Numbered from the stretch's first letter, positions 26,189-31,392 are shown. The stretch is DNA of 55,033 nucleotides from a bacterium (GCA_029979505.1 JAPOHH010000001.1:1-55033), one strand, 5' to 3'. The notes: a model not told the origin generated them from the sequence alone. Translations and numbers: made by a program.

Positions 26189-27079
26189 ATGAAGCTTGCT
26201 AAGGCTTATAATTCTTCTGAACTATGCACAGTCATAGATGCTGTAAGCGAATCTAATAATAATCAATTATTTGATACTATTTCTACTTTATCTAATCCAT
26301 TTCCTAACTCTCTGGGTTTTATTACCACGGATACAACTAATCATGATTTGTCTCAATTTAGTGGCTTGATTGTGAGCAAAAACTTTAATCAGTCTATTAG
26401 TGATAAAATTCAACTTTTTAGATGTCAAAATGTGATGCATTCAGTTAGTATGCTGTTAGAAAAAATATCTATTCATTCAAATTATGTATCTCTTGAAAAC
26501 TTTAATAATGTTACCGTTGGAGAAAATGTATCTATAGGAAAAAACTGTACTCTATATCCTGGTGTTTTTATAAATCATAATACTATCATAGGCGATAATG
26601 TAATAATTCATCCAAATGCCGTTATTGGTTCTGATGGTTTTGGACTATACAAAGTTAATGGAAACTGGAAAAAAATCACACATGCAGGTTCTGTAGTAAT
26701 TGAAGATAATGTAGAAATTGGATCTGGCACTACAGTAGATAGAGGATTAATAGACAATACTATATTAAAAAATAACTGCAAGATTGATAACCTCGTTCAT
26801 ATTGCACATAATGTTGTCATTGGAAATAATACAGCTATAGCAGCATGTACTGGTATTGCTGGCAGTACAGTAATTGGAAGTAATTGTACTATAGGTGGTG
26901 GTACTGGTATCAATGGGCATATATCTATATGTGATAACGTTCATGTTCATGGTATGTCCATGATAACCAAATCTATCAAATCTGAAGGTCAATATGCATC
27001 TGCAATGGCTGCGGATAGTGTTCGTAATTGGAGAAAAAATCAAGTATTATTCAGAAATCTTTATAAAAAAAATAGGTAA
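26189..27079 (+). CDS. lpxD: UDP-3-acyl-glucosamine N-acyltransferase
   Basis: LpxD adds the N-linked hydroxyacyl chain to UDP-acyl-glucosamine in lipid A synthesis. An N-terminal uridine-binding domain of about 105 residues is followed by a left-handed beta-helix of hexapeptide repeats. The likely catalytic His is H207 in HIAHNVVIG. At 296 aa it is about 45 residues shorter than E. coli LpxD, partly through loss of most of the C-terminal helical extension. If the neighbouring GnnAB pair is correct, its substrate would carry an amide-linked rather than ester-linked 3-acyl chain. Confidence 0.94.
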   Translation: MKLAKAYNSSELCTVIDAVSESNNNQLFDTISTLSNPFPNSLGFITTDTTNHDLSQFSGLIVSKNFNQSISDKIQLFRCQNVMHSVSMLLEKISIHSNYVSLENFNNVTVGENVSIGKNCTLYPGVFINHNTIIGDNVIIHPNAVIGSDGFGLYKVNGNWKKITHAGSVVIEDNVEIGSGTTVDRGLIDNTILKNNCKIDNLVHIAHNVVIGNNTAIAACTGIAGSTVIGSNCTIGGGTGINGHISICDNVHVHGMSMITKSIKSEGQYASAMAADSVRNWRKNQVLFRNLYKKNR

Positions 27080-27084
27080 TTTAT

Positions 27085-27516
27085 ATGAATATCCAAAATT
27101 ATTTGCCACACCGTTTCCCGTTTTTGCTTATTGATAAGGTAATAGAGCTAAATAAAAATAAATCAATCATTGCTCAGAAAAATGTAAGTAACAATGAACC
27201 ATTCTTTCAAGGACACTTTCCTAATTATCCCGTATTTCCTGGTGTACTATTATTAGAATCAATGGCACAAGCGACTGCAATTCTAGATGTTGAAAGTAAC
27301 AACAGAGATATGACAAATCAGTTATATTATTTCGTAGGTGTAGATAAAGCACGATTTAAGAAGCAAGTGATGCCTGGTGACATTGTTATTATTAATGCCT
27401 CACTTATACAAAGTAAAAGTGATATACATAAATTTTCAGCTGAATGTAGTGTTGATGATAAAATTGTATGTACAGCCGACCTGATTGGCGCAGTAAGATC
27501 AAAAAATGATTCATAA
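27085..27516 (+). CDS. fabZ: 3-hydroxyacyl-ACP dehydratase
   Basis: FabZ dehydrates 3-hydroxyacyl-ACP in fatty acid elongation and competes with LpxA and LpxD for hydroxyacyl-ACP. The hot-dog fold active site is visible as H44 (FFQGHFP) and E58 (LLLESMAQ). The 143-aa length is standard. It lies 5 nt after lpxD and overlaps lpxA by 11 nt, the classic lpxD-fabZ-lpxA order. Confidence 0.97.
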   Translation: MNIQNYLPHRFPFLLIDKVIELNKNKSIIAQKNVSNNEPFFQGHFPNYPVFPGVLLLESMAQATAILDVESNNRDMTNQLYYFVGVDKARFKKQVMPGDIVIINASLIQSKSDIHKFSAECSVDDKIVCTADLIGAVRSKNDS

Positions 27517-28276
27517 GACTGCTCTTATAGATTCAACTGCATCTATAGCCCCAAGTGTTAAGATAGGAGCTTATGCAATTATTGATAAAAATGTATCGAT
27601 AGACGAGGGAACAGTCATTAAAGAACACGCTGTAATCAGAGAAAATACTTCACTTGGAAAGAATAATATAGTTTATCAATTTGCAAGTATAGGAGAGCAA
27701 CCACAAGATTTAAAATTTAAAAATGAAAAAACTACATGCACTATAGGTGATAATAATATATTCAGAGAAAATTGTAGTATTCATAGAGGTACTAAAGACG
27801 GTATCTCAGATACTTATATTGGTAACAATAACTTATTTATGGCTTACACTCATGTTGCTCATGACTGTGTTATCCAAGATAAATGTATTCTATCAAATGC
27901 AGCTAGTTTAGCTGGGCATGTGGAAGTTGATTCCAATGTTTCATTGGGTGGCTTTACGCTTGTTCATCAATTTTGCAAGATAGGTATGTATGCATTTTCT
28001 GGTCTTGGAACAGTAATATCTCAAGATGTAACACCATACACGCTGGTTGCAGGTAATCATGCTAAAGCATATAAAATAAATTCCGAAGGTTTAAAAAGAA
28101 AAGATTTCAATGAAGAAGATATTAAAAAATTAGAGAAATGCTTCAAAATATTTATCAGATCCAGTGAACCATTGCAGGAGAAATTAAAACTATTTAAAAA
28201 ACGTAATATTAGTAGTGACTGCTCTGATTATTTTGTAGATTTTATTATAAATAGCAAAAGAGGAATTACTCGCTAG
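27506..28276 (+). CDS. lpxA: UDP-N-acetylglucosamine (or 3-amino analogue) acyltransferase
   Basis: LpxA starts lipid A synthesis by moving a 3-hydroxyacyl chain from ACP to the 3-position of the sugar nucleotide. Hexapeptide repeats form a beta-helix. The catalytic base is H119 in THVAHDC, matching E. coli H125. G166 aligns with E. coli G173, the acyl-length residue, so a long (about C14) chain is predicted. The 256-aa length is typical. Linked gnnA/gnnB suggest that it can use the 3-amino sugar nucleotide, as described for Acidithiobacillus LpxA. The 3' end overlaps lpxB tail to tail by 11 nt. Confidence 0.95.
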   Translation: MIHKTALIDSTASIAPSVKIGAYAIIDKNVSIDEGTVIKEHAVIRENTSLGKNNIVYQFASIGEQPQDLKFKNEKTTCTIGDNNIFRENCSIHRGTKDGISDTYIGNNNLFMAYTHVAHDCVIQDKCILSNAASLAGHVEVDSNVSLGGFTLVHQFCKIGMYAFSGLGTVISQDVTPYTLVAGNHAKAYKINSEGLKRKDFNEEDIKKLEKCFKIFIRSSEPLQEKLKLFKKRNISSDCSDYFVDFIINSKRGITR

Positions 28277-29396
28277 TATTTATAATCCTTTCAGCAATAC
28301 TTACCAGACTTTCTGATGGTTTTGCTGAAAGTATTCTTCTAATCTCTTCATAATTTTTAAAGAACTCATTTCTATAATTTTCATCATTATCAATGTTATT
28401 CAATTCAACCATGATATCCACTTGATCATTGTATGAAGGCTGAATAAATTCTTTTACAATTGGTTTATCACCAATAGATGAGCCTAAAATAAGATTTACA
28501 AGGCCTATATACTTCACTGTAATTAATTTCTTCATTATGAGATATGATATGTATGAAAGTTTATACATAATTACCATCGGTATATCTAATATTGCTAGCT
28601 GTAGTGTGATTGTACCTGACGCGCATAAAGCTTTTTTACAATTGCTCACTTGATTAATATTTTTACCAGATATTAAGTATTTATGATATTCATCTGGGAG
28701 AAGCTTTTCTATTATGCTTTTGGATGTCTCATCTGCATAAAAAATTGCAATCTTCTCTTCTTTATTTTTTTGTATACAATCCAGCATAATAAATAAATTA
28801 CTTTTAATCTCAGATTCTCTACTCCCTGGAAATATTCCTAAGTCAATAGTTCTGCTTTGATAGTTCTTTGCTGAACTGATTAAGTCAGCTCTATTATTTA
28901 GTGGGTGACCTACATATGAGACATTATTTGTATATTTTTTGAAAAATATTTCTTCAAATGGAAAAATAACTGCAAGATAATCTATTGATTCTATAAACTT
29001 TTTTGATCTTTTTTCACGCCATGCCCATACTTGTGGAGCTACGTAAAAAAGAACAGGTATACCAAGACTTTTTGCATAACGAGCAACTTTTAAATTAAAC
29101 TCCACATAATCAACTAGTACAATCAAACTTGGCTTATTTTCATAAATATATTTTTTAGCAGCACTAAATGCAGCCATAATTTTTTTATATTTAGATATTA
29201 CTTCAATAATTCCTACTACAGATATTTCTTCAGTATCATAGATTAAACTTGCATTAGTTTTTTTTATCTCACTTTGTCCAAATGCAGAAAATGATATATT
29301 TGTATTAAGTTTGAGATGCTCATTTATGTAAGCTGCCGCGTGTTGATCTCCAGATGATTCTCCAGCTATTATGAAAATATTCTTCTTATCCTTCAT
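28266..29396 (-). CDS. lpxB: Lipid A disaccharide synthase
   Basis: LpxB joins lipid X and UDP-diacylglucosamine into the lipid A disaccharide at the inner membrane. The N-terminal IIAGESSGDQHAA (from residue 9) is diagnostic, and VLFYVAPQVWAWREKR and IFPGSRESEI are also family motifs. The 376-aa length is normal. It is normally downstream of lpxA on the same strand; here it is inverted and converges on lpxA. Its ATG overlaps the 3' end of the aminotransferase gene by 11 nt, so it is third in a gnnA-gnnB-lpxB unit. Confidence 0.96.
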   Translation of the reverse strand: MKDKKNIFIIAGESSGDQHAAAYINEHLKLNTNISFSAFGQSEIKKTNASLIYDTEEISVVGIIEVISKYKKIMAAFSAAKKYIYENKPSLIVLVDYVEFNLKVARYAKSLGIPVLFYVAPQVWAWREKRSKKFIESIDYLAVIFPFEEIFFKKYTNNVSYVGHPLNNRADLISSAKNYQSRTIDLGIFPGSRESEIKSNLFIMLDCIQKNKEEKIAIFYADETSKSIIEKLLPDEYHKYLISGKNINQVSNCKKALCASGTITLQLAILDIPMVIMYKLSYISYLIMKKLITVKYIGLVNLILGSSIGDKPIVKEFIQPSYNDQVDIMVELNNIDNDENYRNEFFKNYEEIRRILSAKPSESLVSIAERIINTSE

Positions 29397-30474
29397 AATT
29401 ATTTAAAATTTTACATATGTTTTTTGCTTGCTTTATAGGAAGTTCTGGATAAATGGGAATTGATAAACATTGTTTTGAGATTTTTTCAACCATTGGTAAA
29501 GGTTTATACCCATTACTTTTATAAGCATTATAGGAATAGATTGGTTTAGAATAATATATACCAAATGGTATACATCTTTTATTGAGATATGTTTCTAGTT
29601 TTTTTCGGTTTTTTACTCTTATTGTAAATTGATTATAACTATGTTGAGCATGTTTATGTGTAAACGGTAGAATAAGACGATCATTCTTAATTTCTTTATT
29701 ATAAATTTCTGCTATGCGTTTTCTTTTTTTAATAAATGAATTTACATAATTTATTTTTACATTTAATATTGCAGCTTGAATTTCATCTAACCTGCTATTA
29801 TAACCAATCAAATCATGTTGATTTCTCTTAATACCACCATGGGTTCTTAGCTTTAAAATAAGCTTATAAAGCTTTTTACTTTTAACACTTATAAGCCCTC
29901 CATCGCCGAAACAACCAAGGTTTTTTGTGGGAAAAAAACTAAAACATCCCATGTCTCCATAAGTGCCTGTCTGTTTATTTTTAAATAGTGCACCAAATGA
30001 CTGCGCACAGTCTTCTATATGTTTTAGAGAATAATTCTTACATATTTTATTGATTTGATCTAACTCAGCAGCCTGACCAAACAAATTAACGGAAAGTACT
30101 GCTTTTGTTTTCTTTGATATCAATTTTACTATTTTTTTTGGATTAATATTAAATGTATGCGGGTTTATATCTGCAAAAACTGGATTCGCACCTACTAATG
30201 AAATTGCTTCAGCAGTTGCAAAATATGTGAATGGTGTTGTTATTACTTCATCACCGGATTTAATACCCAGAGCCCTTAAGGATAAAACAAGTGCATCAGT
30301 ACCCGAATTACAGCTTACCGTATATTTAGTATTTAAGTAATTTTTACATAGATGTTCAAACTCTCTAACATTATCGCCCAAGATATAGTTTCCAGATGAT
30401 AAAATTTTTAAAATTTTTTTATCAATGATATGTCCAAATTCTTTATATTGACTTTTCAGATCAAATATTTTCAT
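29386..30474 (-). CDS. gnnB: DegT/DnrJ/EryC1-family aminotransferase, probable GnnB (UDP-GlcNAc 3-aminotransferase)
   Basis: This is a PLP sugar aminotransferase. The PLP-binding Lys is K184 in FFPTKNLG, D155 lies in IEDCAQSFG, and the phosphate-binding SGTDAL starts at residue 57. The family converts keto-sugar nucleotides to amino sugars. Its placement with a Gfo/Idh/MocA oxidoreductase and lpxB matches the GnnA-GnnB pair of Acidithiobacillus ferrooxidans, where GnnB transaminates 3-keto-UDP-GlcNAc for amide-linked lipid A. The family and active-site residues are seen; the GnnB role is inferred from context. Alternative: a WbpE-like enzyme for another diamino sugar. Confidence 0.78.
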   Translation of the reverse strand: MKIFDLKSQYKEFGHIIDKKILKILSSGNYILGDNVREFEHLCKNYLNTKYTVSCNSGTDALVLSLRALGIKSGDEVITTPFTYFATAEAISLVGANPVFADINPHTFNINPKKIVKLISKKTKAVLSVNLFGQAAELDQINKICKNYSLKHIEDCAQSFGALFKNKQTGTYGDMGCFSFFPTKNLGCFGDGGLISVKSKKLYKLILKLRTHGGIKRNQHDLIGYNSRLDEIQAAILNVKINYVNSFIKKRKRIAEIYNKEIKNDRLILPFTHKHAQHSYNQFTIRVKNRKKLETYLNKRCIPFGIYYSKPIYSYNAYKSNGYKPLPMVEKISKQCLSIPIYPELPIKQAKNICKILNNYEG

Positions 30475-31392
30475 CTATCCAAACCTTTTTGTAATTTTTT
30501 TTGCTACTTTTAGTGCAGTCTCACCTGCAATTCCATCAGTCATAGAAATACCTTTACCATAACATGTGTCTATAAAATTATTTATTTCTTCTTTAAGTGA
30601 ATCAGCTTTTTTGAATTTAAATTTTTTTGTAATAAATTTATTTTTATTATCCTTTATTAGCTGTTTAAGTTCACTATTGATAAAATCTACTGAATAGTAA
30701 GCTTTGTCAGAAAATATTCTCATTTTCCTTTCGTTTTTTGTACTTATTCTACTTGCTGTAAGATTTGCTATAATATTATCCTCAAACTTTATTCTTACAT
30801 TAGCTATATCAGTTAAATTTGTGATTATTTTTTTACCTGATACTGATATATTTTTGATTTGTTTTTTTACAAGGGAAAGAACAATATCAATATCGTGAAT
30901 CATTAAATCTAAGACAACATCAACATCATTAGCTCTAGGATTAAATTGGCATAATCTATGAACTTCTATAAATTGTGGATTTTTAAAACTCTCTTTGAGT
31001 TTCTTTACTGCAGGATTAAATTGCTCTAAATGTCCTATTTGAAGTACGCAGCCATTCTTTTTTGCTAAATAGTTTAATTTTCTTGCTTGCAGGACTGTTT
31101 CAGTCATTGGTTTTTCTAGCAGCACATGTTTTTTATTTTCTAGAAAATATTTTGCGATTTTATAATGCGTATTCGTTGGTGTAACTATTGACACAGCGTC
31201 TACATCATCAACGATATCAGTATATGTATCGGTTTTTATAATTCTTGCTTTATCAATGAACTCTAAATTCTTAGTTATTGAATCAACTGCGCAAGTGAGA
31301 TTTACAGATTTATTAAGCATATATTTTTGGTAATGAAATTTACCTAGATATCCTAATCCGACAATTCCTACTCTAATTTTATTACTAATCAT
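30475..31392 (-). CDS. gnnA: Gfo/Idh/MocA-family oxidoreductase, probable GnnA (UDP-GlcNAc 3-dehydrogenase)
   Basis: This is an NAD(P)-dependent sugar oxidoreductase. The Rossmann motif GIVGLGYLG starts at residue 9 and the catalytic-site EKP motif is E93-K94-P95. H187-region residues (DLMIHDIDIVL) match the usual active-site His/Asp. The 305-aa length is typical. GnnA oxidises the 3-OH of UDP-GlcNAc so that GnnB can aminate it. It is first of the minus-strand unit, its stop directly abuts the gnnB ATG, and a 50-nt spacer separates it from divergent rnhB. Family is clear; the exact substrate is inferred from linkage to gnnB and lpxB. Confidence 0.76.
   Translation of the reverse strand: MISNKIRVGIVGLGYLGKFHYQKYMLNKSVNLTCAVDSITKNLEFIDKARIIKTDTYTDIVDDVDAVSIVTPTNTHYKIAKYFLENKKHVLLEKPMTETVLQARKLNYLAKKNGCVLQIGHLEQFNPAVKKLKESFKNPQFIEVHRLCQFNPRANDVDVVLDLMIHDIDIVLSLVKKQIKNISVSGKKIITNLTDIANVRIKFEDNIIANLTASRISTKNERKMRIFSDKAYYSVDFINSELKQLIKDNKNKFITKKFKFKKADSLKEEINNFIDTCYGKGISMTDGIAGETALKVAKKITKRFG

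Follow-up and report, generated by a model that had tools for sequence, protein, structure and literature searches.

A gnnA-gnnB-lpxB operon that probably supplies a GlcN3N-containing lipid A in an apparently SAR86-like bacterial family

The route to the lipid A amino sugar GlcN3N runs through GnnA and GnnB, as described in three papers (PMC8036547, PMC5644692, PMC3342949), and the structure of the Acidithiobacillus ferrooxidans GnnA has a paper of its own, cited in a further one (PMC8549069). C. canimorsus, which carries both gnnA and gnnB, has a hybrid GlcN3N-GlcN lipid A backbone (PMC3342949), and in C. jejuni the GlcN3N of lipid A alters endotoxicity and sensitivity to antimicrobial peptides (PMC8036547). 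The chemistry, a swap of oxygen for nitrogen on the lipid A sugar, is already known, and what is new here is its prediction for a whole, apparently SAR86-like marine family. Each exchange of O for NH makes the lipid A 0.98 Da lighter. A related pair, WbpB/WbpE of the UDP-GlcNAc3NAcA route to O-antigen, belongs to the same enzyme families and follows the same logic of 3-oxidation and 3-amination; in Pseudomonas its substrate is a uronic acid.

The stretch of DNA analysed here (the window, 55,033 nucleotides) is part of contig C8 in a genome of 0.92 Mb that is 90% complete, and genomes of its family run from 0.7 to 1.2 Mb; small size, AT-richness and a marine origin suggest a SAR86-like identity for this streamlined family. 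The gnnA, gnnB and lpxB frames (Table 1) are intact and without inner stops, the gap between gnnA and gnnB is 0 nt and gnnB overlaps lpxB by 11 nt, and so the three genes are read as one operon with lpxB as its last gene. This operon is convergent with lpxD-fabZ-lpxA, lpxB and lpxA overlapping tail to tail by 11 nt, and the start of gnnA lies 50 nt away from rnhB, which runs divergently. An oxidoreductase of the Gfo/Idh/MocA type and a DegT-type aminotransferase, placed immediately upstream of lpxB and on its strand, next to lpxA, were the starting point of the original prediction, and the open frames and their Pfam assignments bear this out, with lpxA on the opposite, convergent strand; the PLP lysine is K184 as had been claimed, residue 184 of GnnB in the motif FFPTKN. 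LpxB reaches 193.4 bits with the NCBIfam lpxB equivalog TIGR00215, above its cut-off of 190.25.

Table 1. Genes of the operon and of the convergent lipid A group, in window positions
Gene	Coordinates	Strand	Length (aa)	Family match	Function
gnnA	30475-31392	-	305	Pfam PF01408 GFO_IDH_MocA, 1.4e-26	predicted NAD-dependent UDP-GlcNAc 3-dehydrogenase
gnnB	29386-30474	-	362	Pfam PF01041 DegT_DnrJ_EryC1, 3.3e-107	predicted UDP-3-keto-GlcNAc 3-aminotransferase
lpxB	28266-29396	-	376	Pfam PF02684 LpxB, 1.9e-71	lipid A disaccharide synthase
lpxA	27506-28276	+		NCBIfam PRK05289, 332 bits; TIGR01852	acyl-ACP--UDP-GlcNAc acyltransferase
fabZ	27085-27516	+		NCBIfam	
lpxD	26189-27079	+		NCBIfam TIGR01853	N-acyltransferase

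Very probably the pair makes UDP-GlcNAc3N for LpxA, to yield a GlcN3N-containing lipid A that is amide-linked at position 3. This draws on what was observed: which genes these are, where they fall within their families, how their linkage is conserved, and a core pathway present in one copy. In the proposed pathway gnnA and gnnB, in operon with lpxB, would supply the amino sugar for lipid A synthesis: GnnA is predicted to oxidise UDP-GlcNAc at its 3-OH, using NAD, and the resulting ketone would be transaminated by GnnB, giving UDP-GlcNAc3N. A 3-hydroxyacyl chain would then be placed on the 3-amine of this sugar by the single LpxA, and LpxC, LpxD, LpxH and LpxB would process the acylated sugar further, to a lipid A disaccharide whose position-3 chains are amide-linked. 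The substrate, the catalysis, the acceptance of the amine by LpxA and the presence of GlcN3N in one or both sugars are the predicted elements of the scheme.

GnnA carries the Rossmann motif GIVGLGYLGK, K94 within EKP and H166 within MIHDID, the last two residues being the same in all ten GnnAs aligned. Its nearest solved structure is 7bvj (E 4.7e-47, the next at 3e-15), which we take to be that of the A. ferrooxidans GnnA. A quick tree of 101 rows places the window GnnA and 7bvj among 96 GnnA rows of the lipid A type, joined by a branch with an SH-aLRT of 93, and across long branches from these stand the proteins encoded beside WbpA/WbpD-type genes (L117, L124) together with similar ones; the long branches limit the exact support, and the separation is large. 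Phylogenetic placement had been proposed as a check, and for GnnA it finds the lipid A clade and a wide distance from the WbpB type. The WbpB-type references were set by their WbpA/WbpD neighbours, since a PDB search with the L117 protein for a WbpB/WlbA reference returned nothing at E 1e-30. The sole curated UDP-GlcNAc 3-dehydrogenase model that the window GnnA matches is the archaeal equivalog NF040723 of NCBIfam, at 183.4 bits, below the cut-off of 450, and membership of this archaeal family is not assigned.

GnnB has K184 (the PLP lysine) and the aspartate D155, and it is here that a WbpB/WbpE-like role has to be weighed, one in which the pair would act on UDP-GlcNAc uronic acid for a diamino-uronic acid of O-antigen or capsule and its position next to lpxB would be incidental. 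GnnB scores about 277 bits to WbpE, and sequence score alone fails to separate the two. A first tree of 53 rows gave the grouping of gnnA-paired GnnBs a support of 42/20, with a p-AU of 0.30 for the WbpE alliance, and the addition of 13 unlinked homologues brought that grouping up to 95/96. In the careful tree, which has 61 rows, this branch has every gnnA-paired GnnB, that of the window among them, on one side, and WbpE and the wbp-linked proteins stand apart. The family to which the window belongs forms a GnnB clade with a long stem, and when this clade is constrained to group with WbpE the alliance is not rejected (p-AU 0.18), and so the GnnB tree alone is not final. Five positions, chosen on sets without the window's family, distinguish lpxB-linked GnnB from WbpE types; the window GnnB carries the GnnB letter at three of them, among them Asn185, which directly follows the PLP lysine, and in no case the letter of WbpE.

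What speaks further for the uronic-acid role is that some family members have WbpE-type paralogues elsewhere, one copy (L118) adjoining a TviB-type 6-dehydrogenase and a sugar acetyltransferase; against this, the careful tree keeps these paralogues distinct from the lpxB-linked gnnB, and GnnA is far from the WbpB-type proteins. No WbpA-type UDP-GlcNAc 6-dehydrogenase was found in the window genome, and so the uronic-acid route would lack its first enzyme there, within the limit of about 90% completeness; the sole UDPG_MGDP_dh match fits the UDP-glucose 6-dehydrogenase model best, at 429 bits under a cut-off of 757. In the same genome a second GnnA-like gene was not found, the gene being single-copy. 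A WbpB/WbpE-like role is on this evidence improbable, and a lipid A-type GnnA/GnnB, as originally proposed, is the most likely identity by both trees, the missing WbpA-type dehydrogenase and the lone GnnA-like gene.

The only other DegT protein of the window genome is RfbH-like and sits inside a polysaccharide cluster (L116 416-11916, at about 120.4-131.9 kb of G000:C8, outside the window), along with a NeuB-like synthase, a mannose-1-phosphate guanylyltransferase-like protein and a GmhA-like isomerase. It seems that this streamlined genome still makes a surface glycan by way of the cluster.

Of the 25 family genomes, 22 carry the gnnA-gnnB pair, the three without it being 68, 69 and 87% complete, and in every family locus read gnnA adjoins gnnB and runs into lpxB, which together argue that the pairing is not chance. 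Family loci that were read from end to end run lpxD fabZ lpxA, then on the opposite strand lpxB gnnB gnnA, then rnhB dnaE. The convergent lpxA layout recurs in Thioalkalivibrio, Chromatiales, Halothiobacillaceae and other gammaproteobacteria, and so is a widespread arrangement and no local oddity. In a set of 80 named GnnA loci of other organisms lpxB is nearby in 50, gnnB and lpxB are both there in 22, and the window-like convergent lpxA layout appears in eight. A further locus, L038, has a gnnB by tblastn that escaped the count because its frame extends further upstream. A recent acquisition or a relic, with no role in the window organism, is a general possibility for any case built on sequence alone and nothing was found in its favour; given intact frames, the 22 family genomes and the same gene arrangement in distant gammaproteobacteria, it is scarcely credible. 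A search of viral contigs for gnnB relatives found none.

In the pathway that would receive UDP-GlcNAc3N, LpxA, LpxC, LpxH and LpxK are present in one copy each, as is one LpxL-type acyltransferase; a single late acyltransferase suggests five chains in the lipid A. The window LpxA conserves the catalytic-type histidine (H125 of E. coli) and, like nearly all family members read, has Leu at E. coli position 173, which is the acyl-chain ruler position, Gly in E. coli and Met in P. aeruginosa. By analogy, this Leu suggests that the chains may be shorter than C14.

Quite how far GlcN3N replaces GlcN is decided by the selectivity of LpxA, which sets whether both sugars are GlcN3N, with four amide chains, or one, in a hybrid. 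Four amide chains and an alkali-stable lipid A, as originally predicted, would be plausible; any secondary acyloxyacyl chain would stay ester-linked under full or hybrid substitution alike. A hybrid or mixed lipid A, made by a single LpxA that takes both UDP-GlcNAc and UDP-GlcNAc3N, is a sub-case of the preferred explanation and has a fair, though less than even, probability. The E. coli LpxA accepts both substrates, the lipid A of A. ferrooxidans is itself a mixture of GlcN and GlcN3N, and the window genome has one LpxA only and needs UDP-GlcNAc for peptidoglycan, all of which favour a hybrid. The LpxAs of Leptospira and Mesorhizobium require the amine substrate, and so a co-evolved selectivity of LpxA could have arisen here too, which counts against it, as does the hybrid example C. 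canimorsus, which carries two lpxA genes (PMC3342949). No residue that separates the LpxAs of gnnAB-positive from those of gnn-negative genomes survives 1342 tests, and a marker of amine selectivity among LpxA residues, whose absence again favours a hybrid, was dropped on that count; a Pro before Gln73, in 17/17 paired and 11/17 gnn-negative genomes and in all family members, is not significant.

None of the papers on gnnA, gnnB and lipid A in the literature searched has SAR86 as its subject, and the paper on HIMB1674, the first SAR86 isolate (PMC11582366), makes no mention of lpx genes, and so the prediction of a GlcN3N-containing lipid A seems unreported there. If true, this prediction gives abundant, hardly cultured marine bacteria a testable, family-wide expectation of lipid A chemistry. 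That the whole, apparently SAR86-like family has a lipid A whose four primary chains are amide-linked and rather short is a tentative extension that we would not yet favour. Were it true, a major surface-ocean lineage would have an unusual, hydrolysis-resistant and undescribed outer-membrane lipid.

Set beside other loci, gnnA is often found next to lpxB with no gnnB, as in Legionella and a relative (L101, L107), Bdellovibrionaceae (L082), L061, and Desulfobacterota and relatives (L047, L072, L092); with so many such organisms, linkage of gnnA alone is no proof of GlcN3N. The partner of the Desulfobacterota GnnA is likely to be an unlinked GnnB-like clade (seven rows, 100/100), and the best unlinked homologue is of the WbpE type in Legionella as well as in certain other gammaproteobacteria. 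One locus (L021 5651-8254, G052) has two different LpxAs flanking gnnA (lpxA, gnnA, lpxA', lpxB) and no adjacent gnnB, which recalls the lpxA/lpxA' pair of C. canimorsus, maker of a hybrid GlcN3N-GlcN lipid A.

WbpB/WbpE differ from the window pair in falling into other clades and in having WbpA and WbpD as neighbours. With the A. ferrooxidans GnnA/GnnB the window shares the two protein families, the order gnnA-gnnB-lpxB and the linkage to lpxA. A genome that is Acidithiobacillus-like by inferred identity (G050, L026) reads lpxD-fabZ-lpxA-gnnA-gnnB-lpxB-rnhB-dnaE; by comparison the gnnA-gnnB-lpxB block of the window is inverted and convergent with lpxA, and the two GnnAs are 32% identical. The same pair adjoins lpxB in Thioalkalivibrio, Chromatiales, Halothiobacillaceae, Methylococcaceae and Simiduia, with a convergent lpxA as in the window in the first three (L037, L039, L108) and others, and relative to these gnnA-gnnB-lpxB loci the window's family stands on a branch of its own, with a long stem, in each of the two trees.
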